Positions 4,343 through 45,332 of a stretch of 46,053 bases of DNA are shown here, piece after piece (within the stretch, counting starts at the first letter, position 1; each line of letters starts with the position of its first letter). The stretch is from a virus. Position numbers and translations under genes: made by a program. The notes below the pieces were generated by a model. That model worked only from the letters and a program-made list of their open reading frames with translations. It was not told the origin of the DNA and made no database searches. The DNA lies in IMG/VR virus record IMGVR_UViG_3300030101_004030, positions 10,415-56,467 of that record, one strand, 5' to 3'.

Positions 4343-4357
4343 GTAAGGAGATAAATT

Positions 4358-4795: not shown

Positions 4796-4808
4796 GGAGG
4801 TCTTCCTT

Positions 4809-5828
4809 ATGGCATCAACCTGGGGCACTAATACTTGGGGAGCTAACGCATGGCAAGATGATGAAATAACTGTTTCATTAACTTCTCCAGCAGCGACAAC
4901 AGTATTAGGAACATCACAATCTTTTAATGTTGAAGGTTGGGGCAGACAACAATGGAATAACTCTGGTTGGGGAGTAGAATATTCTGTTGAACCATCTGGT
5001 TTATCTATTACCTCTTCACAAGGAACTGCATCGGCAATTCCTTTAACTATTGTTAATCCAACAGGTATTTCAACAACACTGTCTGTTGGTGAAATATCTC
5101 CAGCTGACGTGTTAGGACTATCGGGTCAATCAATAACATCTACAATAGGGGAGCTATCAAGTGTTGGAACTCTCGTTGGTTGGGGTAGAAATGGTTGGGG
5201 AGAAGAGCCATATGGAGACTCGGTTAATAAAGTTATAGTTCTTGTTTTAGGTGAGGAAGTAACAACAGCTGTAGGGTCTATAAGCCCTGCTGATGTGGTG
5301 GGAGTATCAGGAATTTCTGCAACATTTAACGTTGGATCTCCTACGATAATTGGTAGTGTGGTTGTTACGCCTACAGGAGTGTCTTCTACTTTTAGTGTCG
5401 GTTCACTGTCTCCCGCAGATGTAATAGGATTAACAGGAGTTTCTTCAACATCAGCTGTAGGATCAATTACACCTGCTGATGTAATGGGAGTGTCAGGAGT
5501 TTCTGCAACATTTAGTGTTGGTGATATAGAAATTAATTCAAGCCCATTAGTAACATTAACTGGTGTATCAGCAACAATGTCTGTTGGAACATTAACGCCT
5601 GCAGATGTAATGGGAGTGTCAGGAGTTTCTGCAACATTTTCTGTAGGATCTATATCTCCAGCTGATGTGATGGGATTAACGGGTCAATCATCAACTGTTT
5701 CTGTGGCTGGATTTGGAACTGCAACAGGCTTTGGAATCCAAGCATATTCAAGCGTTGACACAGGGTCAAATTCTTCGTATACAAATGTTGCAACTGGCTC
5801 AAATACAAGTTATAGTGACGTAGCATAG
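4809..5828 (+). CDS. Repeat-containing fibre-like protein, 339 aa
   Basis: The N-terminus is Trp-rich with WG motifs (STWGTNTWGANAWQDDE, WGRQQWNNSGWG, WGRNGWGEEPYG). From about residue 65 the protein consists of imperfect repeats of the form GVSATFSVGSISPADVMG, roughly every 18-22 residues and matched at the DNA level (for example PADVMGVSGVSATF around 5470-5520 and 5600-5640). Such regular beta repeats suit an extended fibre shaft. Intragenic repeat recombination could change its length. No known fibre family is identified. Confidence 0.6.
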   Translation: MASTWGTNTWGANAWQDDEITVSLTSPAATTVLGTSQSFNVEGWGRQQWNNSGWGVEYSVEPSGLSITSSQGTASAIPLTIVNPTGISTTLSVGEISPADVLGLSGQSITSTIGELSSVGTLVGWGRNGWGEEPYGDSVNKVIVLVLGEEVTTAVGSISPADVVGVSGISATFNVGSPTIIGSVVVTPTGVSSTFSVGSLSPADVIGLTGVSSTSAVGSITPADVMGVSGVSATFSVGDIEINSSPLVTLTGVSATMSVGTLTPADVMGVSGVSATFSVGSISPADVMGLTGQSSTVSVAGFGTATGFGIQAYSSVDTGSNSSYTNVATGSNTSYSDVA

Positions 5829-5838
5829 GAGATAAAAT

Positions 5839-7269
5839 ATGGCATCAACATTCACACCTTTGGGAGTAGAACTTCAAGCAACTGGTGAAAACGCTGGTAC
5901 ATGGGGAACTAAAACCAATACTAATTTACAAATTATAGAACAAATTTCTGGTGGATACATTGCTAAATCAATAGCAGGTGGAGCCCAAACAACTGCATTA
6001 GCAGTTTCTGATGGATCAGCTGGTGCAGAACTTGCACATAGAATGATTGAGTTCACAGGAACAATTACAGGAAACCAAATTGTAACAATACCTTTAGATG
6101 TTCAAACTTTTTATTTTTTAAGAAATTCAACTTCAGGATCACACACAGTTCAGTTTAAATACGCATCAGGAAGTGGTGATTCATTTACTTTTGCAGCGGG
6201 AGATAAAGGTGATGCCTTAGTATTTGCGACTGCAAATGATGGAACTAATCCAGATATAGATACTTTACCAGCTGGTGATGTTACACTTACTGGAACACAA
6301 ACTTTAACTAATAAAACCCTAACTTCACCTAAAATTGGAACTTCAATTTTAGATACTAACGGAAATCAATTAGCTCTTTTAACAGCCACAGGTTCCGCAG
6401 TTAATGAATTTACAATTGCAAACGCCGCAACTGGTGCAGGTCCAACTATTTCATCTACAGGAGATGATTCAAATATTGATATAAACATTACACCAAAAGG
6501 AACTGGAGATGTTGTTCTTGCTGGAGATACAGTAAAAGTCGGAGACTCAGGAGCAGCAGCTACTTTAACTTCAAATGGTGCAGGTACACTTACAGTTACA
6601 ACAGGCGGTGCAGCAGATTTAGTTTTAAGCACAAATAGTGGAACTGATTCAGGTACAATAACTATTACAGATGCAGCCGATGGTAATATTAATATTGCTC
6701 CAAACGGAGATGGTGTTGCTCAAGTTGGTGGTTCTGCAATAAAAGTTGCAGGTAAAGAAACTATTTGGGTACCTGCAGTTGCTATGTATCCCACTACAAC
6801 AAATGGCTGTGCAGATCTAACACAAGTAGAACTTACTGCAGGTCGACCAGAATTAAAATGTTTAGATTTTGATAAAGATTCAGATGAAAATGCACAATTT
6901 GCTGTTGCTTTTCCAAAATCATGGAACGAAGGAACAGTAACTTATCAAGCATATTTTACAGCAAACAGTACGAACACAGGTAATGCAATTTTTAAATTAC
7001 AAGGAGTTGCTATTTCTGACGATGGTGCAATTGATACTGCAATGGGTACAGGAGTAGCTGTAACTAAAGCTCATAGTGGTACAGCAAATGATTTAGATGT
7101 ATCAGCCGAAAGTTCAGCAATAACTATAGCTGGTTCACCTGCTGCTGGCGATGAAGTATTCTTTCAAATATTTAGAGATGCAAATGATGGTAGTGATACT
7201 TTAACAGCAGATGCGAGATTATTAGGAATTAAATTATTCTTCACTACTGATGCTGCTAACGACGCGTAA
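5839..7269 (+). CDS. Tail fibre-type protein, 476 aa
   Basis: The N-terminal segment TFTPLGVELQATGENAGTWGTKTNTNLQIIEQ resembles the attachment end of fibre proteins from marine phages. The middle contains beta-helix-like stretches (LTGTQTLTNKTLTSPKIGTS, then ITPKGTGDVVLAGDTVKVG and ITDAADGNINIAPNGDG). The C-terminal ~170 residues (from about KETIWVPAVAMYPTTTNGC) look like a separate globular domain and may bind ligand. The LTNKTLTSP motif is common in fibre shafts. It lies between the repeat protein and the glycine-rich adhesin. Confidence 0.7.
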   Translation: MASTFTPLGVELQATGENAGTWGTKTNTNLQIIEQISGGYIAKSIAGGAQTTALAVSDGSAGAELAHRMIEFTGTITGNQIVTIPLDVQTFYFLRNSTSGSHTVQFKYASGSGDSFTFAAGDKGDALVFATANDGTNPDIDTLPAGDVTLTGTQTLTNKTLTSPKIGTSILDTNGNQLALLTATGSAVNEFTIANAATGAGPTISSTGDDSNIDINITPKGTGDVVLAGDTVKVGDSGAAATLTSNGAGTLTVTTGGAADLVLSTNSGTDSGTITITDAADGNINIAPNGDGVAQVGGSAIKVAGKETIWVPAVAMYPTTTNGCADLTQVELTAGRPELKCLDFDKDSDENAQFAVAFPKSWNEGTVTYQAYFTANSTNTGNAIFKLQGVAISDDGAIDTAMGTGVAVTKAHSGTANDLDVSAESSAITIAGSPAAGDEVFFQIFRDANDGSDTLTADARLLGIKLFFTTDAANDA

Positions 7270-7281
7270 GGAGAACAGAAT

Positions 7282-8307
7282 ATGAAAGAATGGGATCTTA
7301 ATTATATTGAGAATCTTATAAACAACAGTAAGAACAGTAAGAAAAAAAATCTTGGTCCTAAGAAAAAATCTTTTGGATATCAAGTTTTAGGTTTTGGTTC
7401 AGGAGGAGCTGCTGCTAAATTTATACAAGCAACAGGAGGGAACTCTACTGCTAGTGGGGGTGGTTTTAAGTACCACATTTTTACAAGCCCTGGGACATTT
7501 TCAGTATCTGAACTAGGAAATGCTCTAGCCGCACCCGGTTCGGACGTCGATGTTTTAGTTGTCGGCGGCGGAGGAGGTGGCGGCGGCACAGGAGGAAACG
7601 ATGGTGCAGGTGGCGGCGGAGCTGGAGGATTTAGGCAAGTAGATACAATTCCGGTTTCAGTTACAAACTTTTCTATGACTATTGGTAGCGGCGGTGGCGG
7701 CGGTAGTAACAGAGGAAAAGGTGGAACAGGAGGATCGTCTTCAGGAATGGGATTCACTTCTGCTGGAGGCGGCGGTGGAGGATGTGAAGGTCCTAACCCT
7801 AGAAACGGAAACTCAGGAGGATCTGGCGGCGGTGGCGGCGGATTCACTGGCCGAGGTGGAACAGGTAATTCACCCTCTGTAAACCCTGCACAGGGAACTC
7901 CTGGTGCAGACGATGGTGGAGTAAGATTAGGTGCACCCGTAACATGCGCAGGAGGCGGTGGAGGACTTAACGCTACCGATCAAAGTTCACCTACAAATAT
8001 TCAAGATGGTGGTCAAGGTGGAGATGCAGGAGGTTTTGCAACCACTACGTCAAAAGGAGAAGGCGGAAGATTCGCTGGCGGTGGCGGAGGCGGAAAAGAT
8101 CACAGAAATACTGGTGTATCCCCTGGAGGAACAGGTGGACAAGGTGGTGGTGGAAATGGTTTTGGACAACCATCAGGAGCACAAGCTGGAGACACTAACA
8201 CTGGCGGCGGAGGTGGAGCAGCCGGAGGACAAAACGGTGGATCACCAAATGGAGCCTCTGGAGGTTCTGGTATAGTAATTGTAAGATACAAGGATGGATC
8301 AGCATAA
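7282..8307 (+). CDS. Glycine-rich tail-tip adhesin, 341 aa
   Basis: After a Lys/Asn-rich N-terminus (~35 aa) there is a beta domain (KYHIFTSPGTFSVSELGNAL, DVDVLVVGGGG), then more than 200 residues dominated by Gly runs, ending SGGSGIVIVRYKDGSA. Glycine-rich repeats of this kind form polyglycine-II sandwich tips in some T4-like gp38 adhesins, which contact the receptor; that comparison is from family knowledge. GC content rises sharply here because of GGN codons, and this produces long proline-rich antisense open frames that are artefacts. It couples by TAATG to the next gene. Confidence 0.7.
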   Translation: MKEWDLNYIENLINNSKNSKKKNLGPKKKSFGYQVLGFGSGGAAAKFIQATGGNSTASGGGFKYHIFTSPGTFSVSELGNALAAPGSDVDVLVVGGGGGGGGTGGNDGAGGGGAGGFRQVDTIPVSVTNFSMTIGSGGGGGSNRGKGGTGGSSSGMGFTSAGGGGGGCEGPNPRNGNSGGSGGGGGGFTGRGGTGNSPSVNPAQGTPGADDGGVRLGAPVTCAGGGGGLNATDQSSPTNIQDGGQGGDAGGFATTTSKGEGGRFAGGGGGGKDHRNTGVSPGGTGGQGGGGNGFGQPSGAQAGDTNTGGGGGAAGGQNGGSPNGASGGSGIVIVRYKDGSA

Positions 8308-8765
8308 TGGCTCACTTTGCAAAATTAGATGAAAACAATAAAGTTTTAAATATAGAGGTTGTTGCGGACGAGGACTGCAATAACAATGATGATGAAGCTG
8401 CTGGGATAGCCCATCAAACAGCTATTACTGGTTATTCTAATTGGAAAAGAACTTCATACAATACTTTTGAAAATACACATAAATTAGGTGGTACACCCTT
8501 TAGAGGAAATTATGCAACTATAGGTGGCACGTATGACCCAGTAAACGATCAATTTTATTCAATTAAACCAAACGCATCTTGGGTAAAAGATGTTTCAAAT
8601 GCAAAATGGATAGCACCCATACCTTATCCTACTATTGATGATAACTCCGATATGAGTATTAATTGGGACGAATCTAATTACAGATGGGTTAGAAATACCT
8701 CTGCTAGACCTGAAAATCCAGAGCAAGCTTGGAATTCAGACACTTTATCTTGGACAGATCTATAA
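8307..8765 (+). CDS. Small fibre-associated protein, 152 aa
   Basis: The sequence begins MAHFAKLDENNKVLNIEVVADEDC and contains NTHKLGGTPFRGNYATIGGTYDPVNDQFY, then a Trp/Asp-rich end with NPEQAWNSDTLSWTDL. Proteins with this start are familiar next to fibre genes of marine myo- and podoviruses, where function is unknown. It is translationally coupled to the adhesin (shared base at 8307), so a tail-tip subunit or adhesin chaperone is plausible. It is the last gene before the promoter of the oxygenase array. Confidence 0.6.
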   Translation: MAHFAKLDENNKVLNIEVVADEDCNNNDDEAAGIAHQTAITGYSNWKRTSYNTFENTHKLGGTPFRGNYATIGGTYDPVNDQFYSIKPNASWVKDVSNAKWIAPIPYPTIDDNSDMSINWDESNYRWVRNTSARPENPEQAWNSDTLSWTDL

Positions 8766-8768
8766 TAT

Positions 8769-8796
8769 TTGACATTGATTTTTACTAATATATAAG
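8769..8796 (+). promoter_or_regulatory. Sigma70-like promoter of the oxygenase array
   Basis: Consensus -35 TTGACA (8769-8774), 16-bp spacer, -10 TATAAG (8791-8796). The predicted transcription start near 8803 leaves only about 8 nt before the ATG at 8811. It sits directly after the stop codon of the last fibre-associated gene. Confidence 0.7.
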
Positions 8797-8810
8797 TATT
8801 TTTGAAAGTT

Positions 8811-9338
8811 ATGGAAAGAAAAATACTATCAGAAACAGAAGTTTGTTTTGGAAGCGTTAATCAATTTCAAAAATTTGACAGAAAAGAAATTAAAGACTTT
8901 ATATTAAAACATAAAAACGAAAGATTTTTTGATCCGTTTTTAAATAGGTTTTATGATGTAAAACTTCCATACCATAACAATATATACACTCTTCAATGTT
9001 ATCTTAGAGATGTATATAGAGTAAAATCCGGGCGTGGTTTAGTTCCTTTTTCTTGTTTTGCACAAGTATTAAGTAAAGGAGAAAATTCATTTAAAAGAAA
9101 CCACGTTAATCAAACTGATCTTCAAAACTCATCAGACATAACGTTTGTTGTCCCAATACAAGGAGATACCTTAATAACCATAGAATACTCAGACCATAGA
9201 GATAAGGGAAGATTCTGGGTGGTTCCTTTTACTGAAAATGAATTTGTGGCCTTTAATAGTGACCTAGATTATTACATAAATAAAAATTCAAAAGAAGAAG
9301 ATTTAATATATTTGATATATAATTTTAAAAAAGACTAA
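8811..9338 (+). CDS. Hypothetical protein, possible degenerate 2OG-oxygenase fold
   Basis: First gene of the oxygenase array, about 175 aa from the ATG at 8811. A TTG at 8802 could extend it but lies at the predicted transcription start. It does not show a clear metal triad. Still, its C-terminal half (SFKRNHVNQTDLQNSSD, then beta-like ITFVVPIQGDTLITIEYSD and RFWVVPFTENEFVAFNSDLDYYI) follows the strand order of the double-stranded beta-helix in its neighbours, with Asp where the distal His would be. It may be a catalytically dead paralogue or an unrelated protein. The stop overlaps the next ATG by one base (TAATG). Confidence 0.5.
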   Translation: MERKILSETEVCFGSVNQFQKFDRKEIKDFILKHKNERFFDPFLNRFYDVKLPYHNNIYTLQCYLRDVYRVKSGRGLVPFSCFAQVLSKGENSFKRNHVNQTDLQNSSDITFVVPIQGDTLITIEYSDHRDKGRFWVVPFTENEFVAFNSDLDYYINKNSKEEDLIYLIYNFKKD

Positions 9339-9970
9339 TGAATCTGCAATACACTTATTGGTATTTTCAAGGAGTTTTACCTGAAAAATTTTGTAATCAA
9401 GTCATAGATTTAGGTTTATCAAAAAACGAACAAAGGGCCATGATAGGTGACGAAGTTAAAGCTTTGAAACAAAACAAAAAAATATCTACTAAAGATAGAA
9501 AAAAGTGGAAAGAAATTAGAAACTCAGACATATCTTGGTTGGATGAAAAATGGATATACAGAACAATTGATCCCTTTGTTCAAGATGCAAATAAAAGTGC
9601 AGGTTGGAATTTTCAATATGATTTTGTAGAGTCTACACAATTTACCAAATATAAATTAAATCAATATTATGATTGGCATCAAGACTCTTATCCCGGCACT
9701 TACAGTGAGGGTAATAAGGCGGGAAAAACTAGGAAACTTTCTTTAACTTGTAATTTAAGTGATGGAGATGAATACATAGGGGGAGAGCTAGAGTTTTTAA
9801 ATTTATCTAAAAGACCTGATAAAAAAATACAATCAATAAAATGTAAAGAAATATTAAAAAAAGGATCTATAATTGTATTTCCCTCCTTTGTGTGGCACAG
9901 GGTTACCCCTGTTACAAAAGGCACTAGATATTCTTTAGTTGCTTGGAATTGTGGAAACCCATTTACATGA
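9338..9970 (+). CDS. 2OG-Fe(II) oxygenase, prolyl-4-hydroxylase-like (array member 1)
   Basis: A 210-aa non-haem iron dioxygenase with the canonical triad: His114-Gln-Asp116 (in YYDWHQDSYPG), His187 (in FVWHRVTPV) and the 2-oxoglutarate-binding Arg197 followed by Ser199 (GTRYSLVAW). GGELEF between the motifs is the usual beta-turn of prolyl-4-hydroxylase-type enzymes. Such enzymes hydroxylate protein side chains or small molecules using O2 and 2-oxoglutarate; the substrate here is unknown. The N-terminal ~90 residues are helical and Lys-rich. It overlaps the next gene by ATGA, so the two are co-translated. Confidence 0.88.
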   Translation: MNLQYTYWYFQGVLPEKFCNQVIDLGLSKNEQRAMIGDEVKALKQNKKISTKDRKKWKEIRNSDISWLDEKWIYRTIDPFVQDANKSAGWNFQYDFVESTQFTKYKLNQYYDWHQDSYPGTYSEGNKAGKTRKLSLTCNLSDGDEYIGGELEFLNLSKRPDKKIQSIKCKEILKKGSIIVFPSFVWHRVTPVTKGTRYSLVAWNCGNPFT

Positions 9971-10602
9971 TTAATAAATTTAAAAAACAAAATTATATTG
10001 TTATAAAAAATGCTATAGAAAAAAATCTTGCCGGTTTTTTATACAATTATTTTTTATTAAAAAGACAGTCTACCGATACTTTTTTTAAAGCTAGGTACAT
10101 ATCTCCAAAAGAAACAATGTTTGGAACCTGGAACGATCCACAAGTTCCTGATACTTTTTCTATATACGGAGATGTTGCCTTTGAAACTTTGTTATTAAAA
10201 TGTCAACCAATTATGGAGTCTACAACAAAATTAAAACTATACCCTAATTATTCTTACGCTAGAATATATAAAAAAGGCGATGTTCTTGAAAGACACAAGG
10301 ATAGATTTAGTTGTGAAATATCAACCACTTTGTTTTTAGGCGGAGATAGGTGGCCAATTTATTTAGAACCCTCTGGTAAGAATAATAAAAAAGGTGTTAA
10401 GGTAGATTTATTACCAGGGGATATGTTAGTTTACAAAGGCCAGTTTTTAGAACATTGGAGGGATGAATTCAAAGGGGACAATTGTGCTCAAGTTTTTCTA
10501 CATTATACAGACGTAAAAACTAAAGGATCAAAAGAAAATTTGTTTGATGGAAGATACCACATTGGTATTCCGAAAGATATAAAAGCTGGAGACATAAAAT
10601 GA
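9967..10602 (+). CDS. 2OG-Fe(II) oxygenase family protein (array member 2)
   Basis: 211 aa from the ATG in the ATGA overlap. The metal motif is His110-Lys-Asp112 (VLERHKDRFSCEIS) and the distal His163 lies in FLEHWRDEF. The last strand reads CAQVFLHY, so the usual Arg is replaced, with Lys169 or Gln175 nearby. The pattern YARIYKKGDVLERHKDR...LPGDMLVYKG...EHWR is one I recall in oxygenase-like proteins of cyanophages and other marine viruses. The altered 2OG-binding site may indicate a distinct cosubstrate geometry. Confidence 0.82.
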   Translation: MINKFKKQNYIVIKNAIEKNLAGFLYNYFLLKRQSTDTFFKARYISPKETMFGTWNDPQVPDTFSIYGDVAFETLLLKCQPIMESTTKLKLYPNYSYARIYKKGDVLERHKDRFSCEISTTLFLGGDRWPIYLEPSGKNNKKGVKVDLLPGDMLVYKGQFLEHWRDEFKGDNCAQVFLHYTDVKTKGSKENLFDGRYHIGIPKDIKAGDIK

Positions 10603-11210
10603 ACGATGTATTTCAAATATTTTCAACACCTATATTAAAAAAGAAATTAGATTTAAATTTAAACATATTAAATAAAACAATAAAAAAAATACAGAAGAAA
10701 AATAAAACAGCCAATAAAACTAACATAGGAGGTTATCAAAGCCCTGAGTTAAATCATAAAAACATAAAAGAGTTTAAACCTTTAATCGACAGTATTTTAT
10801 TAGAATCACATAGATTTGCCTCAAATGTTTTAGCCTATAAAAACAAATTAAAAATAAATAATATTTGGTTTAATATAAATAATTATAAAGATTTTAATAA
10901 AAGCCATACACACCCAAGATCTTTGGTGTCAGGAGTATTTTACGTTAAATCACCCTTGATTGAATCAAACGACTATGAAACATGTAGATTAAAAGGTATG
11001 CTAACTTTTCAAAATCCCCAAGACGATATTGAACACTATTATCCATGGGTTTATCGAGGGGGAGACAATGCGTTTATAACAGATGAGTTTTCTTTTCCAC
11101 CATTTGACAATGGGCTATTTTTATTTCCATCTTGGGTAAAACATTATGTAAATCCAAATATGTCAAAAGAAGAACGAATATCCGTAGCTTTTAATGTGAG
11201 TCCCGTATGA
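10599..11210 (+). CDS. Putative 2OG-Fe(II) oxygenase, HxH type (array member 3)
   Basis: 203 aa. It matches the TIGR02466/2OG-FeII_Oxy_5 pattern: FNKSHTHPRSLVSGVFYVK with His103 and His105, then GLFLFPSWVKHYVNP with His182, and ERISVAFN with Arg193 and Ser195. The second metal-ligand position is His instead of Asp. The first ~60 residues are extremely Lys/Asn-rich. The enzyme family is well known but its substrates are not. ATGA overlaps occur at both ends. Confidence 0.82.
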   Translation: MNDVFQIFSTPILKKKLDLNLNILNKTIKKIQKKNKTANKTNIGGYQSPELNHKNIKEFKPLIDSILLESHRFASNVLAYKNKLKINNIWFNINNYKDFNKSHTHPRSLVSGVFYVKSPLIESNDYETCRLKGMLTFQNPQDDIEHYYPWVYRGGDNAFITDEFSFPPFDNGLFLFPSWVKHYVNPNMSKEERISVAFNVSPV

Positions 11211-11767
11211 TTAAAATAAAACCAATGACAACATATTATGGCATAGCCAGAGTTCCTAATTTTAAAAAACATAAAAAAATTTTGTTAAAATATTTTGAAG
11301 AAATGGAAGGAGCTCCTTTTGATGAAGACAGACAGGAGATATCAAAAACAGATTGGAATGTACCATCAAGTGTCCCAAGAAACTACATGCAGTATTTTAT
11401 AGACATGATCGTGCCAGTTTACAGTAAAGCAGTAGAGCAGCTATCCTACGGTAGTTTTATGATAGATAATGTTTGGTTTCAACAATATGTTAAGGATGGA
11501 ATGCACGATTGGCATATGCACCCTGAACACACCTTCTCTAATGTGTTGTTTGTTGAACTACCAAAAGGAACAGAAACACAATTTTTAGATCCGTTTAGAA
11601 AAAAAGTTTTAATACCAGAAGTTAAAGAGGGGGATATATTAATTGCTTTAGGGGCTTTATGGCATAGATCTCCTCCAAATAAAACAAACAAAAGAAAAAC
11701 CTCCCTTGTGTTTAATAGTAAATTTAAAGGTAATAAACCTTTTGAACATAGAAATGATTATCCGTGA
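11207..11767 (+). CDS. Putative 2OG-Fe(II) oxygenase, HxH type (array member 4)
   Basis: 186 aa. Metal-site candidates are His103-Met-His105 (HDWHMHPEHTF) and His153 (ALWHRSPPNKT). The 2-oxoglutarate anchor is probably Lys164 in KRKTSLVFN. The core strand order (NVLFVELP, then VKEGDILIALGALWH) is that of the double-stranded beta-helix. The N-terminus lacks the Lys/Asn-rich extension of its neighbour, so the array is not a simple recent duplication. It ends in a GTGA overlap with the next gene. Confidence 0.78.
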   Translation: MIKIKPMTTYYGIARVPNFKKHKKILLKYFEEMEGAPFDEDRQEISKTDWNVPSSVPRNYMQYFIDMIVPVYSKAVEQLSYGSFMIDNVWFQQYVKDGMHDWHMHPEHTFSNVLFVELPKGTETQFLDPFRKKVLIPEVKEGDILIALGALWHRSPPNKTNKRKTSLVFNSKFKGNKPFEHRNDYP

Positions 11768-12291
11768 AAGTGGTTTCTAATATATTTACAAAATCAACCA
11801 ATAAAACTATTCTAAGACATTTAGGGGAGCTTCCTTTTTACATAGCTAAAGATCATGGATCTAGAAAAAGAATTGATGCTGTGTTCGAAAAAAGTAACTC
11901 TGGTTTTAGTCATTCTACTTGGCTACATAGAAAAGGCGGTGAAACATATAAAACACCTCTTAATTTATATGCTGATATAATTTTTGAAAAAGTTGTTGAT
12001 AATTTAAAATTAGGAAAAGTTGCTTTAAACAGAATATTTTGGAACATGTATTTTAAAAATTCTGAAACAGAATTGCATCAAGATGTTTCTAAAAAAATGC
12101 CTAATGCTTATTCAATAGTGTACTCAATACATGACAGTGGCGGTGGTCTAATAATAGACAATAAATTTATAAAAGATGTTCCGGGAGAAGCAAAAATTTT
12201 TAAAAGTAATTTATTTCACAAAGGAACAGGACCTAAAAAAACAAATGTGAGATTTAGTTTAAATATTTTGTATGAAGAAATTGATAGTTAA
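11764..12291 (+). CDS. 2OG-Fe(II) oxygenase, HxD type (array member 5)
   Basis: 175 aa with a GTG start inside the GTGA overlap. Metal motif His105-Gln-Asp107 (TELHQDVSKK), distal His152 (NLFHKGTGP) and Arg163-Phe-Ser165 (VRFSLNILY) give a complete canonical site. SIHDSGGGLIID supplies the Gly-rich turn between strands. The N-terminal ~90 residues contain two Trp and a HxxxxTW stretch that may shape substrate binding. It overlaps the following gene by 20 nt. Confidence 0.84.
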   Translation: MKVVSNIFTKSTNKTILRHLGELPFYIAKDHGSRKRIDAVFEKSNSGFSHSTWLHRKGGETYKTPLNLYADIIFEKVVDNLKLGKVALNRIFWNMYFKNSETELHQDVSKKMPNAYSIVYSIHDSGGGLIIDNKFIKDVPGEAKIFKSNLFHKGTGPKKTNVRFSLNILYEEIDS

Positions 12292-12775
12292 AGATAATTT
12301 TTTAGGGGTTAAAAAAATAAAAGCTTTAAATGAGTATTGTATAAATATTCCCCATCAATATGGACATACCTCTAATTGTAGAAAAGAGGACACTAATTTT
12401 TATAAAGCTAACATTGATGCTGAACTAGAAAACATAAACTATATATGTAAAAAAATAGTCGAATTACATGGCGGTGATTTAGCTTTTTTTGAGACATATA
12501 TAAATATTCAGTACGCCGGAATGAATGGATCTTTTCATAAAGACATAGGACAATACACTTGGGTATTAATGGTGTCGCCCACATTGACTAAAGGCTCTGG
12601 ATGTTTTATAACAAAAAAACAAAGCATAGATTTTGTACAGGATAGATTAATTTGTCTTCCTGCTAAAACGCTTCACAAGGGTATGGCTCCAAAAGAGTTA
12701 GCTATTCCAAGAATAACGATGGCGTTTAAAACGGAGAAAGTAAATGAATTTTATAAAAGAGTATACGGTAAGTAA
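12272..12775 (+). CDS. 2OG-Fe(II) oxygenase, HxD type (array member 6)
   Basis: 167 aa, the smallest clear member. Metal motif His89-Lys-Asp91 (GSFHKDIGQYTWVL), distal His135 (KTLHKGMAP) and Arg147-Ile-Thr149 (PRITMAFKTE) are all present. Strands between them include GSGCFITKKQSIDFV. The start lies 20 nt inside the previous gene, and the 3' end overlaps the next gene by 32 nt, so expression is strongly coupled. It is close in architecture to array member 5. Confidence 0.84.
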   Translation: MKKLIVKDNFLGVKKIKALNEYCINIPHQYGHTSNCRKEDTNFYKANIDAELENINYICKKIVELHGGDLAFFETYINIQYAGMNGSFHKDIGQYTWVLMVSPTLTKGSGCFITKKQSIDFVQDRLICLPAKTLHKGMAPKELAIPRITMAFKTEKVNEFYKRVYGK

Positions 12776-13265
12776 ACGCATCTGTAAAAAATTAATTAAG
12801 TACTACGAAGATAGTTTAGATAAAAAAATTTTAAAAGATGAAATTAGGGATATGGGGTACGTTTTTGTAAACGCTTCAAATCCTATTCTTGCGCCATATT
12901 TAAAAAGTTTAAAAAAAGCTATAGAGAAGTACAAAGAAGAGTATCCTGTTTTATATACCATACCTGGTTATTGGAGATTATATCCAAATGTAAAAATACA
13001 AAAGTATGATCCAGGTCAATCTTATTTTTCTTGGCATTGTGAGAGATCGGGAAACACAGGAGATGTTACAAGAGTTTTAGTTTTTATGACATATTTAAAT
13101 ACTGTAAAATCTGGCGGTGAAACAGAGTGGAGATATCAAAAGTACATTACAAAACCTGTGGAAGGCTCTACTGTTATATGGCCTGCTGAATGGACCCATG
13201 AACATAGAGGTAAAAAATCAAAACAAACTAAATACATAATTACTGGGTGGTACAACTATGATTAA
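12744..13265 (+). CDS. 2OG-Fe(II) oxygenase, HxE type (array member 7)
   Basis: 173 aa. The first metal pair reads His98-Cys-Glu100 (SYFSWHCERSGN), so the carboxylate ligand is Glu rather than Asp. The distal His is His152 (AEWTHEHRGK) and the basic cosubstrate residue is probably Lys163 (TKYIITGWY). LNTVKSGGETEW is the standard turn of prolyl-hydroxylase-like folds, and similar sequences occur in viral P4H-type proteins. It overlaps its neighbours by 32 and 8 nt. Confidence 0.84.
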   Translation: MNFIKEYTVSKRICKKLIKYYEDSLDKKILKDEIRDMGYVFVNASNPILAPYLKSLKKAIEKYKEEYPVLYTIPGYWRLYPNVKIQKYDPGQSYFSWHCERSGNTGDVTRVLVFMTYLNTVKSGGETEWRYQKYITKPVEGSTVIWPAEWTHEHRGKKSKQTKYIITGWYNYD

Positions 13266-13839
13266 AGCAGGTTTTGCATATTGGGGACCACTTCTGTATT
13301 TTACTAGAATAAGTGATAAAGATGTAAAGACCTTATTAAAAAATTGTAAAAAAGATATTAAATTTGATGCCAGAAAAAAATTAGCTGGAATAATAAAAGA
13401 TGAGTACAACTTTAATTTTCATGTATACCAACAAGTTATAGCTAAATACATACCTGATTTTTTAAAGGCATGGCAGATGTATTATAATCAAAAAATAAAC
13501 AAAATAGAAATTACAAACTGTTGGGTTAATTATATGAAAGCTGGAGAAAGTAATCCTAATCATGTTCACACCGAATGTGATCTTTCTAGTGTTCTATATT
13601 TAAAAATTCCAAAGGGACTCAAAAAAGAAAATGAGCAATACATAGGTACATCAAGAGGCCCGGGAGTTGTTAATTTTACATATGGAGATGTTAGGCCATA
13701 TAATACAATAGAGCACTCTTTCATGCCAGAGGTAGGGCAGTTTTTTATATTTCCGTTTAACTTAGAACATTCTGTAAATTCTTTTAAATCTAAGGGAGAA
13801 CGAATATCTTTAGCCACAAATTTTCAAATTGTTAAATGA
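13258..13839 (+). CDS. Putative 2OG-Fe(II) oxygenase, HxH type (array member 8)
   Basis: 193 aa. Motifs: His102-Val-His104 (NPNHVHTECDLSSVLYLK), His171 (FNLEHSVNS), Arg182-Ile-Ser184 (GERISLATNFQ). It shares a block (LKKENEQYIGTSRGPG, then SFMPEVGQFFIFPF...EH) with the protein encoded at 39850-40503. The two are therefore paralogues within one genome although 26 kb apart. An N-terminal region WGPLLYFTRISD corresponds to NWGPCVVKMKISD of the other. ATGA coupling links it to the last array gene. Confidence 0.84.
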   Translation: MIKAGFAYWGPLLYFTRISDKDVKTLLKNCKKDIKFDARKKLAGIIKDEYNFNFHVYQQVIAKYIPDFLKAWQMYYNQKINKIEITNCWVNYMKAGESNPNHVHTECDLSSVLYLKIPKGLKKENEQYIGTSRGPGVVNFTYGDVRPYNTIEHSFMPEVGQFFIFPFNLEHSVNSFKSKGERISLATNFQIVK

Positions 13840-14381
13840 TACCATTTGATTATTATTATTTAAATAACGTATTAGATGATTATCAAATAAAAGGATTATT
13901 AGACATAATAGATAAAAATAAAGTATACTCTACTGATAACCAAGCAACATCCTCCTTAAAAACATCTAAAGTAAAATACACAGAATGGCGTTTTATAAAA
14001 AACTGGTTGGACGATGTTTATTGTAGTGTGTTAGAAATAAACAAACAACATTTTGGCTATAATATCTACCCTTTAAAAAACGATGATATAATTAATATAA
14101 ATGAGTATGGTCCAAAAACTGAATATACTTGGCATAAAGACTCATCTAATAATTTTAACAATGATGTAAAACTTACCGTTATATTAAACATATCCACCAG
14201 CAAATATACAGGAGGCGATTTTGAGTTATTTTTAAATGGGGTTCATGAAAATAAAAATTTAGTAAAAGAACCAGGATCTTTGATTATTTTTAAGTCACAC
14301 ATAAATCACAGAGTAAAACCAGTTATTAATGGCACTAGAAAGACACTTACGCTTTGGTTGACGGGGCCCAGATTTATATAG
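13836..14381 (+). CDS. 2OG-Fe(II) oxygenase, PKHD/P4H-like (array member 9)
   Basis: 181 aa and the most canonical member. Metal motif His100-Lys-Asp102 (TEYTWHKDSSNN), the GGDFELF turn, distal His158 (SHINHRVKPV) and Arg168-Lys-Thr170 (GTRKTLTLWLTGP) match PiuC/PKHD-type hydroxylases. In such enzymes the reaction couples decarboxylation of 2-oxoglutarate to hydroxylation of a substrate. This gene ends the array, 34 nt before the next virion gene. Confidence 0.88.
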   Translation: MIPFDYYYLNNVLDDYQIKGLLDIIDKNKVYSTDNQATSSLKTSKVKYTEWRFIKNWLDDVYCSVLEINKQHFGYNIYPLKNDDIININEYGPKTEYTWHKDSSNNFNNDVKLTVILNISTSKYTGGDFELFLNGVHENKNLVKEPGSLIIFKSHINHRVKPVINGTRKTLTLWLTGPRFI

Positions 14382-14407
14382 TATAAGACACTAAAACCTT
14401 ATATAAT
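14358..14407 (+). promoter_or_regulatory. Possible promoter before the large tail/hub gene
   Basis: TTGACG (14358-14363), an 18-bp spacer and TATAAG (14382-14387) form a weak promoter. A perfect TATAAT (14402-14407) lies closer to the ATG at 14416 but has no -35. No Shine-Dalgarno is visible; the 14-nt context AATGGGCCGCTATG at the start recurs at 36531-36544 with one change. Confidence 0.4.
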
Positions 14408-14415
14408 GGGCCGCT

Positions 14416-16605
14416 ATGCTACAAAAGATCGGATTTCAACCAGGTATAAACAAACAAATTACTCCCACAGGAGCGGAAGGTCAGTGGGTAGACTGTGATA
14501 ATGTCAGGTTTAGATATGGCACACCTGAAAAAATAGGTGGTTGGAATCAATTAGGAACTCAAAATGAGAATGAACTGACAGGAGCAGGTAGGGGTTTACA
14601 TCATTTTGTTAATACTTTAGGTAGAAAATACGCAATTATTGGTACGAACAGAATTTTATACGCTTTTTCTGGAGGTGTGTTTTATGACATACACCCCATT
14701 GAATCAACTACAACTCTTACAAACGCATTCACTACAACCAATGGATCACCAACTATAACAATAACTTTTTCTAGCGCACACACTTTAGTTCCAGGAGACA
14801 TACTGTTGATGGATAATTTCACTGCCATCACTAATTCTAATTTTAGTGCATCTAATTTTGATGATAGAAAATTTATGGTAGTAACAACACCTACTAATAC
14901 AACAATAACAATCACTATGGATTCAAACGAAACAGGTTCTGGGGCAACCACATCTGGTGGTATTAGAATACAAAAATATTTTACTGTAGGACCCGCTGTT
15001 CAAGCAAAAGGATTTGGTTGGGGGTTAGGATCTTGGGGCGGAGAGGACACTTCTGCTATCTCTACAACTTTAAATGGAGCATTATTAGATGACACTGCAG
15101 GGACAGGTGGGTCAGGGACCTCTATTACTTTAGCCGATACTTCTCAACTTCCATCTTCTGGCACAAATTTTATTCAAGTTGGAAACGAAGAAATTTCTTA
15201 TACAGGAGTTTCTGGTAATGATTTAACTGGTATAACTAGAGCTGTAAGAGGCTCTACGAGATCTTCACACTCCGATGGCGCAGCAGTAAAAAATTCATCA
15301 AACTATGTTGCTTGGGGTGAAGCTGCTTCGGGAGATTTAGTCATTGATCCTGGAATGTGGTCCTTAGATAATTTTGGTGATAAAGCTATTTGTTTAATAC
15401 ATGATGGCCCTGTTTTTTCTTGGGACTCTAGTTTATCAAATGCAACATCTACAAGGGCAACTATCATAACGGGAGCTCCAACTGCATCAAGACACATGTT
15501 AGTGTCAACACCGGATAGACACTTAGTATTTTTTGGAACAGAGACAACTATTGGAGATACATCAACACAGGATGATATGTTTATTAGATTCTCCGATCAA
15601 GAGGATATAAATACTTATATACCCACGGCAACTAATACAGCCGGCACACAAAGACTAGCTGATGGATCTCAAATTAGAGGAGCTATTAGGGGTAGAGATG
15701 CAATCTACGTTTGGACCGATACAGCTTTATTTACGCAACGTTTTATTGGCCCACCTTTTACTTTTGGTTTTTCTCAAGTGGGAACTAATTGTGGATTAGC
15801 TGGACAAAATGCATGCGTTGAAGTAGATGGTTCTGCATACTGGATGTCAGAAAATGGTTTTTTTAGATACGCAGGTAAATTAGAATCTTTACCTTGTTTA
15901 GTAGAGGATCACGTTTATGATGACATAAATATGGAATCTGGTAATCAAATGATATCTGCTGGTTTAAATAATTTATTTGGAGAGGTAATGTGGTTTTATC
16001 CTAGTTCAACATCTTCTGTTGTTAATAAAATGGTTTGCTATAATTATTTTGATTCTACCCCACAAAGACCTGTGTGGACAGTAGGAACACTTGCTAGAAC
16101 AATGTGGCAAGATTCTGCTGTTTTTGGCACGCCTCATGCTTTAGAATATGATGCTGATACTGATACATCATTTGATGTGGTTGGAAATACAGAGGGCAGA
16201 ACTTCTTACTATGAACATGAAACAGGGACTGACCAAAATAGAAATGGTACGATTACAGCAGTTACAGCAAACATATTGTCAGGAGATTTTGACATAACAC
16301 AGCAACAGCAAGGCGTTGCAAATCTTAGAGGAGATGGAGAATTTATAATGAAGATAAGAAGGTTTATACCAGATTTTATTTCACAAACAGGTAACTCACA
16401 AGTAACTTTAAATTTAAGAGATTTTCCTAATGACACAGCTTCTAGTTCGTCACTTGGACCTTTTACTGTAACGTCCTCAACTTCTAAAGTGGATACCAGG
16501 GCTAGGGCTAGAGCAATAGCTCTAAAAGTAGCAAATACAGGGTCTGGTCAGGATTGGAAACTTGGAACTTTTAGATTAGATATACAACCGGATGGGAGAA
16601 GGTAA
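14416..16605 (+). CDS. Large tail hub / packaged-DNA stabilisation-type protein
   Basis: 729 aa. The N-terminal signature KIGFQPGINKQITPTGAEG followed by WVDCDNVRFRYGTPEKIGGW is characteristic of a large structural family in podoviruses. I recall it annotated as phage stabilisation protein (P22 gp10-like role) or tail nozzle; this is moderate. The body is beta-rich with a short Gly/Thr-rich insertion (GTGGSGTSITLADTSQL) around residues 230-250. Its position, after fibres and before internal-virion genes, fits a tail-tube closure component. It couples to the next gene by TAATG. Confidence 0.6.
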   Translation: MLQKIGFQPGINKQITPTGAEGQWVDCDNVRFRYGTPEKIGGWNQLGTQNENELTGAGRGLHHFVNTLGRKYAIIGTNRILYAFSGGVFYDIHPIESTTTLTNAFTTTNGSPTITITFSSAHTLVPGDILLMDNFTAITNSNFSASNFDDRKFMVVTTPTNTTITITMDSNETGSGATTSGGIRIQKYFTVGPAVQAKGFGWGLGSWGGEDTSAISTTLNGALLDDTAGTGGSGTSITLADTSQLPSSGTNFIQVGNEEISYTGVSGNDLTGITRAVRGSTRSSHSDGAAVKNSSNYVAWGEAASGDLVIDPGMWSLDNFGDKAICLIHDGPVFSWDSSLSNATSTRATIITGAPTASRHMLVSTPDRHLVFFGTETTIGDTSTQDDMFIRFSDQEDINTYIPTATNTAGTQRLADGSQIRGAIRGRDAIYVWTDTALFTQRFIGPPFTFGFSQVGTNCGLAGQNACVEVDGSAYWMSENGFFRYAGKLESLPCLVEDHVYDDINMESGNQMISAGLNNLFGEVMWFYPSSTSSVVNKMVCYNYFDSTPQRPVWTVGTLARTMWQDSAVFGTPHALEYDADTDTSFDVVGNTEGRTSYYEHETGTDQNRNGTITAVTANILSGDFDITQQQQGVANLRGDGEFIMKIRRFIPDFISQTGNSQVTLNLRDFPNDTASSSSLGPFTVTSSTSKVDTRARARAIALKVANTGSGQDWKLGTFRLDIQPDGRR

Positions 16606-17498
16606 TGGCTACATTAGAAGATATAGGATTTAACAACGAGACCATGTTTATAGACGGAGACGGTCAAATAAGATTGAGAGATCCGAACGAAGCTAGAGCT
16701 ATGTTAGCTGCAAATGAACCTAATTTTGATTTAAGTAATTACACAATGTCTACGTTTCCTGTAACAAATATAAATCAAAGTTTAGATGGTATTCTTGGAA
16801 TAGAGGGCGTTCAATCAGTTAATAATTTAACTAAAAGACCTTTGGATAAAATAGATACAAGAAATAATTTAAATGTTTCATCAAATTTAATGCAGTCAGG
16901 TCCTTTAGTTGAAGTAGGATTAACAGAACTAGGTGAGCCAATAATGGGAACAGAGGCGCCCACACCAACAAACAGATTTTCTATTGATGGCTTAAAAGAT
17001 TTTATAATGAGTGGTGGTATTACAGGTAACATATTAAGAGGTATAGGATCTCTTGTTACACGAGATCCAAGACAGGCCGCATTAGATAAATTTTATTCAG
17101 ACCAATCTAGAAATACTGCGGGCACTCTTACTTCAGGATTAATGGCAGGTTATAATCCTGTGTCAGGTGGGTTGTTAAATATGATAACAGGTGGTAGATT
17201 AGGTGACCCTACGACATTTGGATTACAAAGAGCTTATCAAAAAAGAATAGACACAATTAAAAATACTTTAAAAAGAAAAGAGTCTGAAGTGTTAGAAGCT
17301 AGATTAGCTCAACTAGAAGCAGAAAAAGCTAGAGAGTTACAAGCGTTACAAACAGCTCAAAAAGAAAAAGATAGACGAATTAAAGCAGATGCTTATGCAA
17401 CACAATTAGGAGATAGATACACTGGAGGAGAGAATACTAGATCAGCTAGAACTACAGGTAACTATGATGATCCATTTAATCCAGGGTTCGCAGACTAA
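16605..17498 (+). CDS. Hypothetical virion-module protein, 297 aa
   Basis: No family recognised. The N-terminus (ATLEDIGFNNETMFIDGDGQIRLRDPNEA) is acidic. The middle contains Gly-rich stretches (IMSGGITGNILRGIGSLV, SGGLLNMITGGRLGDP). From about residue 215 a coiled-coil helix rich in Ala, Glu and Lys (KRKESEVLEARLAQLEAEK) ends in a disordered tail. The mix of small hydrophobic and coiled-coil segments suits an internal or tail-associated protein. It overlaps both neighbours by one base. Confidence 0.55.
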   Translation: MATLEDIGFNNETMFIDGDGQIRLRDPNEARAMLAANEPNFDLSNYTMSTFPVTNINQSLDGILGIEGVQSVNNLTKRPLDKIDTRNNLNVSSNLMQSGPLVEVGLTELGEPIMGTEAPTPTNRFSIDGLKDFIMSGGITGNILRGIGSLVTRDPRQAALDKFYSDQSRNTAGTLTSGLMAGYNPVSGGLLNMITGGRLGDPTTFGLQRAYQKRIDTIKNTLKRKESEVLEARLAQLEAEKARELQALQTAQKEKDRRIKADAYATQLGDRYTGGENTRSARTTGNYDDPFNPGFAD

Positions 17499-17662
17499 TG
17501 GCTAAGATAGTACAAGTATTAACAAGACCTAGTAAAGACTATGATCTCTCCACTGCAGAAGCACAAGTAAGGGATCTTGATGCAATAGTGGAAAAATTAA
17601 ATACTACGTTTCAAGAAGAATTAAAACAAGAGGTAGAAGCGCAAAACTTCTTTTTAAATTAA
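17498..17662 (+). CDS. Small conserved protein, 54 aa
   Basis: Starts MAKIVQVLTRPSKDYDLSTA and ends in an amphipathic helix (VRDLDAIVEKLNTTFQEELK). It joins both neighbours through TAATG junctions. The MAKIVQVLTRPSK start is one I recall in short proteins at this place in marine podovirus genomes. Function unknown; probably a small virion assembly factor. The coupled starts and stops support it as a true gene despite its size. Confidence 0.7.
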   Translation: MAKIVQVLTRPSKDYDLSTAEAQVRDLDAIVEKLNTTFQEELKQEVEAQNFFLN

Positions 17663-18003
17663 TGTCTAATAGTTTTTTAAATAAAAAAGTAGATTTAACT
17701 ACCACAGATAATACAACGCTGTATACTGTGCCAGATGCAAATACAGCTGTCATAAAGTCTATATTAGTATCAGAGGACGCCGGATCAGGGACCACGATAA
17801 CCGTAACCTTAACAGACGCTAGTTCTAATGTGTTTAGTTTATTTAAAACAAAGACCATATCCAGTAATGCAACAACAGAATTATTAACCCAACCGTTAGT
17901 TATGGAAGAAAAAGAAATACTAAAGGTTCAAGCAGCAGATGCTAATGAGCTACATGTTATAGCTTCCATACTACAAATACAGCCAAGAGAGGTAACCACG
18001 TAA
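17662..18003 (+). CDS. Small beta-rich putative virion protein, 113 aa
   Basis: The sequence (SFLNKKVDLTTTDNTTLYTVPDANTAVIKSILVSED, then GTTITVTLTDASSNVFSLF) is beta-rich and ends with an EEKEILKVQAADANELHVIAS segment. This pattern resembles small tail-associated proteins of marine phages. No enzymatic motif or cysteine is present. It shares one base with each neighbour, so it is part of the same translational chain as the hub gene. Confidence 0.55.
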   Translation: MSNSFLNKKVDLTTTDNTTLYTVPDANTAVIKSILVSEDAGSGTTITVTLTDASSNVFSLFKTKTISSNATTELLTQPLVMEEKEILKVQAADANELHVIASILQIQPREVTT

Positions 18004-18173
18004 TGAAAGAGCTACATCCTGAAAAAATAATAGAAAAAATAACAAATAAAAAAACAGGTGAAAACTATAAAGATGATAATGATTGGAAATCAAAAGGAAT
18101 ATCACCAGAAGATATAAGAAGAGATATTACTGTGGTGATGCCTAGTCTTGACTTATTTGGGGAAACAAAATAG
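18003..18173 (+). CDS. Hypothetical small charged protein, 56 aa
   Basis: Translation runs from the ATG at 18003 (TAATG junction) to TAG at 18171. The protein starts MKELHPEKIIEKITNKKTGE and ends VVMPSLDLFGETK, strongly hydrophilic with alternating Lys and Asp/Glu. It has no recognisable family. The chain of coupled starts continuing from upstream supports it as a real gene. Confidence 0.6.
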   Translation: MKELHPEKIIEKITNKKTGENYKDDNDWKSKGISPEDIRRDITVVMPSLDLFGETK

Positions 18174-18226
18174 AGTGATAAATTCAGGATATTCATACCT
18201 GCTTTATCATCAACTTTGGCAAAACT

Positions 18227-20326
18227 ATGGCAATAACTAGAGGACAAATGCAGAGACAATTAAGACAAGATGGCGGGATCATGGATCTTTCACCAGTGCC
18301 AAGAGAAAACTTTGGACTAGGTAGTAAACTTAAAAGAACCATTAGAAAAATTATTCCAAACGAAGTAGCAGAAGTTGCAGTTAAAGCTGCTCCTTTTGTT
18401 GCACCATTCAATCCCGCAGTTGCTGCAGCTATGGCAGGTATTGGTTCTTTTGATCAAACAGGAAGTATAAGTGACTCTTTAAAAAGAGGTGCACTAACTT
18501 ATGGTGGTGGACAACTAGCTAGATTTATAGGTGGTGCAGGATTTCAACAAAATCCTTTTACACAAGGTGGAGCATTCAGAGGTGGCCTTGAAGGATTTAA
18601 GGGAGGTTTTAGTTCTCCTCTTGGAACAGAGACAGGTCTTAAATTAGGTAAAAGCAATACGGTACAATCAAAACCTGTAGAGGGGGTAAAATCAATTGAT
18701 CAAAGTGCTCTTATTGAAACTCAAGCAGCAGAGGCACCAGTTACAGTTGGAGAAATGGAAGCTTTTAATAAAATAGGTGTAGAGGCTGCAAGTGGAGATT
18801 CCATATTAGATAAAGGTTTTGATTTAATTAAAAAAGGTGGAAAAGAATTTTTTTACAAAGATGGTAAGTTAGATAAGACAGCTGTTATCGCTGCCGTATC
18901 TGGAGCAGCTAGTTATGCAGAGGCATTGGCACTGGCTAAAGACGCTGGTACAGAAATCACTGAAGAAGAATATGATGAAGCTAAAAAAGCAGAGAAGAAA
19001 GCAGAGTACGCTGGTTATTTAGAAACCTTTTTTGATAGTAAAAAAGACGGTGGCAGAATAGGTTTTAGTAAAGGCGGTAGCCGTGTAACTCAACTATTTA
19101 AATTATTAGAAGAGGCAGAAACTGCAGGAGACGACGATAAGATTAGAGAGATTAAATCAGATTTATTTAAAGAGTTTAATTTAAAATTAGCTAAAGGTGG
19201 TAGAATAGGTTTTGCACGTGGAACTGATAAAGACTCTGATGAGATTGAAGAGTTTAAACAATTAATAAGTGGTGACATTATTGAAAACGAAGACCCAGAC
19301 ATGAGAGACATGGATGATCTAATGGCTGGTGGAGGCATTAGTTTTAGTAGACAAGAAAAATCATTTCTATTTAGAAAACTAGGTGGGTCTGGTGGTTCTG
19401 AAAGATCTTATACAATGCCTCAATTGTATAGAATATTAAATAGCCCTAATAGTCCTAATAACATAGGTGATGCAAGAATATTAAAAGAGATAGCTGTTAT
19501 AGGACTAGGTGGTGGTAGAAAAGACGGTGGCAGAATAGGGTTTAGAAAAGGTTCACCTAAAAATCTTGTAGGTATAGAAACTTTAAAATTAGGTGAGTAC
19601 GATATGGAAGGTTTTAGAGATAAAGATAAATTCAATACTTTAACTTTTGGTAGTGATGATTTAAAGGCTTTGTCACAAGCTTTAGATTATGGTGAGTTAT
19701 CAGATTTGTCTGATAGACAAAAAGAAAAAATAAGAGAGAGAATTTTATTATCTAGAGCTGGAATAATAGATGCAACAGAATTTGAAAAAGAAATTGGAAT
19801 AAAACTTAATGAAGCACAAAAAAAATTTTTAAAAACAGTTACTCCAGATAAAACAATTAATAAAATATTTTTAGATGAAGAGGGTGATTTTAGAAAAGGT
19901 ATTCAACTTGGAAGAAAATTAGGAGAAGATGCATTTTTCTTTGGTCAAAAAACTCCAACACTAACTAGCATGGACTATAATAAATTAGGGGACGAGTATA
20001 TAAAAGAACAAAAAGAAGCTGTACAACAACGTATAAATTTACTTAGAGATTTTGACCGTAAAAATTATTTAAATTTTAAAATGGGTGGAGAGGTGCCTGT
20101 AAGAAAAAACAAAGTGGGAATCGAAGAGCTTGACTACAGACAAAGTGGTGGCTTTGTGCCTGTAGGAGTAAAAGAAAAAGCAGACGACGTACCTGCAATG
20201 TTGTCTAAAAACGAATTTGTAATGACCGCAGATGCCGTAAGAGGTATCGGTGGAGGAGATGTTGATAAAGGTGCTGAAAAGCTATACAACGTCATGAAAC
20301 AAGCAGAAAAAGTAGGTAGAGCATAA
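18227..20326 (+). CDS. Large putative internal-virion protein with GGRIGF repeats
   Basis: 699 aa. The N-terminus (AITRGQMQRQLRQDGGIMDL) precedes a hydrophobic Gly/Ala-rich region (residues ~50-125). The motif GGRIGF occurs at residues 275-280, 324-329 and 434-439, each within a Lys/Asp-Gly-rich patch, and two copies share a 21-bp identical DNA stretch (19042-19062 and 19519-19539). The C-terminus contains DDVPAMLSKNEFVMTADAVRG and GAEKLYNVMKQ, a block I recall as highly conserved in marine phages. Role probably in the virion core or DNA ejection; unproven. The ribosome-binding site is weak. Confidence 0.6.
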   Translation: MAITRGQMQRQLRQDGGIMDLSPVPRENFGLGSKLKRTIRKIIPNEVAEVAVKAAPFVAPFNPAVAAAMAGIGSFDQTGSISDSLKRGALTYGGGQLARFIGGAGFQQNPFTQGGAFRGGLEGFKGGFSSPLGTETGLKLGKSNTVQSKPVEGVKSIDQSALIETQAAEAPVTVGEMEAFNKIGVEAASGDSILDKGFDLIKKGGKEFFYKDGKLDKTAVIAAVSGAASYAEALALAKDAGTEITEEEYDEAKKAEKKAEYAGYLETFFDSKKDGGRIGFSKGGSRVTQLFKLLEEAETAGDDDKIREIKSDLFKEFNLKLAKGGRIGFARGTDKDSDEIEEFKQLISGDIIENEDPDMRDMDDLMAGGGISFSRQEKSFLFRKLGGSGGSERSYTMPQLYRILNSPNSPNNIGDARILKEIAVIGLGGGRKDGGRIGFRKGSPKNLVGIETLKLGEYDMEGFRDKDKFNTLTFGSDDLKALSQALDYGELSDLSDRQKEKIRERILLSRAGIIDATEFEKEIGIKLNEAQKKFLKTVTPDKTINKIFLDEEGDFRKGIQLGRKLGEDAFFFGQKTPTLTSMDYNKLGDEYIKEQKEAVQQRINLLRDFDRKNYLNFKMGGEVPVRKNKVGIEELDYRQSGGFVPVGVKEKADDVPAMLSKNEFVMTADAVRGIGGGDVDKGAEKLYNVMKQAEKVGRA

Positions 20327-45314: not shown

Positions 45315-45332
45315 GGGCAGCTTACGCTGCCC
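45315..45332. terminator. Hairpin at the junction of ArdC-like and next gene
   Basis: GGGCAGC (45315-45321) / GCTGCCC (45326-45332), seven perfect pairs with a TTAC loop that contains the stop codon of the ArdC-like gene. No T tract follows on the minus strand, so it is more likely an mRNA-stabilising or attenuating hairpin than a full terminator. Confidence 0.5.

Follow-up and report, generated by a model that had tools for sequence, protein, structure and literature searches.

Between the tail-fibre genes and a virion stabilisation-like gene of a bacteriophage lies an unbroken run of ten genes (g0 to g9) of the double-stranded beta-helix (DSBH) type, nine of which can be placed in the Fe(II)/2-oxoglutarate (2OG) dioxygenase superfamily. 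The run occupies plus-strand positions 8811–14381 of the stretch analysed here (the window, 46,053 nucleotides), which corresponds to positions 10415–56467 of the 56.5-kb IMG/VR virus record IMGVR_UViG_3300030101_004030. A first-pass annotation had described an array of nine coupled open reading frames (ORFs) at 9338–14381; these nine stand, with complete Fe(II) sites, and the array becomes one of ten DSBH-type genes with the addition of g0, which had been missed. The g0 ORF (8811–9338) opens at a TTG at 8802, and the ATG at 8811 is its likelier start. From g1/g2 to g8/g9, neighbouring genes overlap by 4, 4, 4, 4, 20, 32, 8 and 4 nt, within the 4–32 nt given before; at g1/g2, 4 nt follows from the ATG at 9967, and an overlap of 28 nt would require g2 to begin at a TTG.

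Six array genes pass the Pfam curated cut-off for a 2OG-Fe(II) family: g1 (9338–9970, PKHD/P4H-like, with the motif HxD..H..R), g7 (12744–13265, HxE..H..K) and g9 (13836–14381, HxD..H..R) match PF13640, and g3 (10599–11210, HxH..H..R), g4 (11207–11767, HxH..H..K) and g8 (13258–13839, HxH..H..R) match PF13759. The remaining three match only PHROG families, named 'ferrochelatase' (phrog_2954) for g2 (9967–10602, HxDR..C..HxR..Q) and 'DNA endonuclease V' (phrog_274) for g5 (11764–12291) and g6 (12272–12775), both with the motif HxD..H..R. An iron site, either 2-His-1-carboxylate or HxH..H, is present in all nine genes and in g10, a lone PF13759-like oxygenase gene outside the array. In relatives the metal ligands hardly vary, against a background identity of 22–52%. 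They are kept in 171/171, 171/171 and 170/171 relatives of g1, in 168/168, 168/168 and 167/168 relatives of g2, and completely or nearly so in g3, g4, g8, g9 and g10. Conservation is weaker for g5 (seven relatives, partly misaligned) and g6 (two relatives only), and the distal His of g7 is kept in 29 of 36 relatives, a shortfall that is partly an alignment effect. A halogenase reading was dropped, the apparent HxA variants among g5 relatives being misalignments. The basic cosubstrate residue proposed earlier is found in eight array genes as well as in g10; g2 instead has an invariant Gln (Gln175, counted from the ATG) at the position of the usual 2OG-anchoring Arg/Lys, so its cosubstrate is uncertain. 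Membership of the nine genes in the dioxygenase superfamily is well supported as an enzyme class; catalysis and 2OG use are inferred.

The two products that we modelled with AlphaFold2, g0 and g2, are both predicted to have the DSBH fold, in line with the structural check proposed in the first-pass annotation. The g2 model, built from 49 aligned sequences, has a predicted local distance difference test (pLDDT) score of 96.1, and its 50 best Foldseek matches in the PDB are all 2OG oxygenases, none a ferrochelatase. The top match is a Dictyostelium prolyl hydroxylase (PHD), followed by the Pseudomonas putida prolyl 4-hydroxylase (P4H) bound to EF-Tu. By sequence, g2 has no phmmer match in the PDB, and the ferrochelatase family PF00762 is matched by none of the 49 members of the g2 family. 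We therefore reject a ferrochelatase identity for g2. That name is used by PHROGs, many RefSeq records and one recent study (PMC11561400), and the deposited records of 023Pt_psg01, S-CREM1 and S-SCSM1 already call the family an oxygenase. The g5 and g6 products were assigned through family members: PF13640 is matched by 11 of the 15 members of their joint alignment and the DenV model by 0/15, on which grounds a T4 DenV-type endonuclease V identity is likewise rejected. Both gene types thus belong to the oxygenase superfamily, a new placement under which the names 'ferrochelatase' and 'DNA endonuclease V' look wrong in these phages, and the two types probably hydroxylate proteins.

At the head of the array, g0 matches no Pfam or PHROG family itself, and a few members of its family match phrog_81. 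Its model (pLDDT 86.9) retrieves 3bvc, 2rg4, the dioxygenase subunit TlxI and other 2OG enzymes in Foldseek, and the metal ligands are not conserved in the g0 family. Since the predicted DSBH fold comes without metal ligands, the run reads as ten DSBH genes headed by an apparent pseudoenzyme; g0 is likely a dead paralogue, a designation that draws on the predicted model. With g0 and the genes labelled 'ferrochelatase' and 'DNA endonuclease V' counted in this fold class, the run becomes a single cassette without gaps.

All ten array genes recur in the same order in a sibling contig, at 83–91% identity, and every one of them is under purifying selection. The ratio of nonsynonymous to synonymous substitution rates (dN/dS) between the two contigs is 0.053–0.149 across the ten genes, a range like that of neighbouring virion genes, with 0.076 for g0. 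The sibling carries one extra DSBH gene between g4 and g5, joined exactly at the gene boundaries, where the window has the 4-nt g4/g5 overlap; genes are therefore added to the cassette, or lost from it, one at a time. The array members are divergent, as had been noted: the best paralogue within the array is only 26–34% identical, and best matches in other phages reach 69%. Recent tandem duplication was rejected as an origin, as only one of 367 genes matched its own locus better than elsewhere, and that gene was the lone g10.

The fixed 3' border of the cassette is a virion structural or stabilisation-like gene (14416–16605, plus strand, phrog_3287), and its usual 5' neighbour encodes a small conserved fibre-region protein (8307–8765, plus strand, phrog_7759), which we call 'mah' after its opening residues (MAHFAKLDENN...). 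Upstream of that gene is a glycine-rich fibre/adhesin-like protein (7282–8307, plus strand, phrog_2295; 84% identical in the sibling contig). The array had been placed directly after this adhesin; in fact the 'mah' gene and g0 lie between the adhesin and g1. Among 60 loci that carry the border gene, the window included, 58 hold 2–11 DSBH genes in the slot between the fibre genes and the border. The longest unbroken run is eleven (locus L054), and the ten of the window rank second. Gene counts in relatives come from iterated hidden Markov models, whose families share hits and may drift, and were spot-checked; in three large arrays compared with PHROGs, most members fall in 2OG, 'ferrochelatase' or 'endonuclease' families and the g0 member in none. 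Cassette composition varies strongly between loci, and the cassette is inverted in HTVC027P and in three further loci (L011, L019 and L024). Gene order and content thus vary freely between relatives and give no sign of the ordered hydroxylation that the first-pass annotation had suggested.

In most loci, the 'mah'-type gene sits just upstream of the cassette, and a gene of this type also lies near 2OG genes in the cyanophages S-SM1, S-SSM5 and P-RSM4 and in the freshwater phage DSL-LC04. S-SSM5 and P-RSM4 carry smaller versions of the cassette. The proposed link to tail-fibre genes was to be judged by synteny, and this position is conserved in related pelagiphages and in unrelated cyanophages alike. 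Within the oxygenase clusters of S-SSM5 (4724–5254 of locus L312) and P-RSM4 (4726–5253 of locus L313) we also observed a gene annotated as a TPR domain protein, which adjoins leprecan-like and PF05721-annotated genes. Of the 476 residues encoded by the fibre gene at 5839–7269, only 292 align with the sibling contig, at 90% identity, and for the gene at 4809–5828 identity is no more than 51%; this pattern suggests that fibre domains have been swapped (4809–7269) beside a conserved cassette.

The window contig is an HTVC023P-type pelagiphage, as judged by shared virion and replication genes. Its border gene is 46–49% identical to genes of HTVC027P, HTVC023P and phage 023Pt_psg01, the order of the genes around it matches that in the same three phages, and PolA, an SNF2-type helicase and a TOTE-type primase domain are encoded. 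The same border gene and related arrays occur on 59.5- and 62-kb contigs from the SAR11 single-cell genomes AG-422-I02 and AG-404-L13. A SAR11 host therefore fits, and SAR11 (Pelagibacter), the bacterium that is most abundant in the ocean, is probably the host of the window contig.

We tentatively favour the reading that the cassette, an insertion that separates the fibre genes of a SAR11 podovirus from its stabilisation-like gene, is a modular set of Fe(II)/2OG-type peptidyl hydroxylases whose most likely targets are tail-fibre proteins. Three lines of evidence point to a peptide or protein substrate: PHD, P4H and PKHD hydroxylases are among the closest matches by fold and by profile, bacterial relatives of g2 sit in lasso-peptide and radical S-adenosylmethionine (SAM) peptide clusters, and the fibre-side location recurs across unrelated phages. 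Hypoxia-inducible factor (HIF) prolyl hydroxylase and the bacterial and viral prolyl 4-hydroxylases supply the best fold matches of g2 and significant profile matches of g1, although identity is only about 10–16% and g2 differs in its Gln. Under this reading, nine members would bind iron and oxidise side chains, and g0 could serve as a partner or substrate-binding subunit. The cassette would be made together with the tail genes, presumably late, and would hydroxylate receptor-binding proteins encoded just upstream, for which the 'mah' protein, the glycine-rich protein and the fibres are candidate substrates. Hydroxylation might then change how stable the adhesin tip is or how it binds, and gain or loss of single genes would shift the modification pattern between phages.

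Among about 36 cellular loci with g2 relatives, at least six have a lasso-peptide or radical-SAM setting. Five are lasso-peptide clusters (L309, L306, L275, L303 and L304): lasso-peptide B2 and cyclase genes lie beside g2 relatives in Brevundimonas and Legionella, and three more contigs, one of them from Acidobacteria, have at least one of these genes there. The g2 relative of Xanthomonas cannabis (L295) is the middle one of three tandem DSBH genes that follow a cyclophane-type radical-SAM peptide maturase. This locus (3578–8541) also includes a small Pro-containing peptide ORF, and the lasso-peptide cluster of Brevundimonas poindexterae (L309, 3733–7947) holds two 2OG-type genes, one of them of the phage 'ferrochelatase' family. 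The 2OG lasso-peptide hydroxylase CanE is known to act on the linear precursor (reviewed in PMC9266682). It is possible, if doubtful, that unrelated marine phages run a hydroxylation line on their own receptor-binding proteins that resembles the tailoring of ribosomally synthesised and post-translationally modified peptides (RiPPs). Such a line would comprise up to eleven peptidyl hydroxylases, one of them dead and perhaps an adaptor, with genes exchanged singly and with g2 as a distinct class that has Gln for the 2OG anchor. If so, the chemistry of an adhesin tip could change without a change in its sequence. No precursor peptide, lasso B/C protein or radical-SAM maturase was found among the window genes scanned.

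Several results weigh against fibre-directed peptidyl hydroxylation. Profile–profile comparison between array families with hhalign (A1, A2 and A6 versus A5, at a low effective number of sequences) reached no significance, so for g0 and g2 the case for homology comes from the predicted structures, joined for g2 by motif conservation. The Foldseek matches of g2 also include the small-molecule enzymes HygX, EvdO1, SnoN and MysH. When loci were sampled by the 'mah' gene alone, a DSBH gene lay directly downstream in 38 of 82 copies, so 'mah' also exists without oxygenases. Array content at first appeared to covary with the 'mah' protein (Mantel r=0.43, p=0.001); once near-duplicates were removed and ranks used, Spearman correlation fell to 0.03 (p=0.33), and the same de-duplicated test gave only weak correlations with other fibre genes (0.25–0.28). 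Because the signal vanished after de-duplication, we do not use covariation as support. We found no substrate test of these enzymes in the open-access literature, a search outside which most subscription papers fall.

The peptidyl hydroxylases might instead act on host proteins (outer-membrane receptors, ribosomal proteins, or translation factors such as EF-Tu) and so prevent superinfection, say, or adjust translation, with the fibre-side site reflecting only late expression and a tolerant insertion site. The P. putida P4H that ranks second among the g2 matches was co-crystallised with EF-Tu, g1 lies near the PKHD hydroxylases of the PiuC type, to which the PDB entry gives the name of an iron-uptake factor, and the set of genes changes between loci whose flanking virion genes remain alike. 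By itself this explanation does not say why phage groups that are unrelated should have the cassette behind one and the same fibre-region gene, and we regard it as unlikely. A metabolic role, in which auxiliary genes shift the 2-oxoglutarate, nitrogen or iron status of the host, has been proposed for cyanophages (PMC3037559) and pelagiphages (PMC9599517, PMC11561400, PMC12753301), and host iron-transport genes do rise during HTVC027P infection (PMC12753301). The iron-partner argument, however, rests on the 'ferrochelatase', here an oxygenase fold with no PF00762 match in 49 family members, and ten divergent enzymes, all separately kept by purifying selection, would not be needed to draw down a metabolite; this role is quite improbable.

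Modification or repair of DNA or RNA by AlkB- or TET-like enzymes, including protection from host nucleases, would accord with weak profile matches, both of the g2 family (a TET-like dioxygenase at E=0.08 and PF13532 at E=0.025) and of the g5/g6-type alignment (a DNA N6-methyladenine demethylase at E=0.0018). Yet the stronger among the profile matches of g1 are to protein hydroxylases, the cassette lies in the tail region rather than the replication module, and, as the first-pass annotation had also argued, no methylase, thymidylate synthase or base-hypermodification gene is present among the window genes scanned, all of which makes such a function very improbable. Least probable of the explanations considered is the tailoring of a small molecule or of a surface glycan or lipid: it could draw on the small-molecule enzymes among the g2 matches and on the glycosyltransferase that HTVC023P and HTVC027P carry downstream of the border gene, but in the window neither a glycosyltransferase nor a biosynthetic gene was found next to the array.

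Nine oxygenase genes in a row had been thought unusual, a view not supported by the contents of the same slot in related loci or by two cyanophages. It is already published that marine phages can carry many 2OG genes, and such clusters are not unique. HTVC023P-type phages were reported to carry eight 2OG genes that are not orthologous and often lie next to one or two 'ferrochelatases'; the 2OG genes were called nearby but not adjacent, and the ferrochelatase was treated as a partner from the heme pathway (Wittmers et al. 2022, PMC9599517). The window belongs to the same phage group, and here the run is contiguous, with ten genes in the window and eleven in L054 and the sibling contig. The cultured cyanophage S-SM1 (GU071094) has nine DSBH genes among eleven consecutive genes (SSM1_051–061), directly after a 'mah' homologue and the fibre region, and annotated piecemeal as 2OG oxygenase, leprecan, DNA endonuclease V and ferrochelatase; it differs in being a T4-like cyanomyovirus in which no g0-type gene was detected. 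Cyanophage S-SCSM1, with 24 2OG-Fe(II) ORFs (PMC9602691), likewise combines in a single genome numerous members of the same Pfam families that share little identity. Its ORFs, however, are numbered across a 228-kb genome, whereas the window phage has one contiguous run in about 5.6 kb of a 56-kb contig. PHD-like structures have been recognised across phages (PMC12774648), and the 2OG tailoring enzymes of lasso-peptide and radical-SAM peptide clusters, in one case with three DSBH genes in tandem, are another close parallel.

An 'oxygenase plus ferrochelatase partner', the pairing that underlies interpretations of these phages (PMC9599517, PMC11561400), is replaced here by a single superfamily, into which the cyanophage 'denV' moves as well. 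This yields a specific and testable substrate class, peptides, and a location, the fibre proteins. Virion mass spectrometry could provide an answer in the isolates HTVC023P, HTVC027P, S-SM1, S-SSM5 and P-RSM4.

A few features of the window lie apart from this argument. The cassette (8802–14381) has a GC content of 29.6%, compared with 35% for the window and 38–39% for the flanking virion genes. No Rfam elements were found in 4000–20000, promoter-like sites show no excess over shuffled sequence, and terminator-like sites are only slightly above it. The lone g10 (39850–40503, plus strand, phrog_81) is closest to g8 (39% identity). The gene of a LAGLIDADG homing endonuclease overlaps its start, and g10 in turn overlaps a PD-(D/E)XK nuclease gene (39425–41231 for the group); the homing endonuclease may mobilise g10. 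Just ahead of the window start, unresolved bases (X in the capsid ORF) mark the beginning of ORF 10393–11304 of locus L083, probably a scaffold gap or masked stretch. On the minus strand, positions 45322–45957 encode a zincin-like metallopeptidase of the PolyVal type (PF18818).

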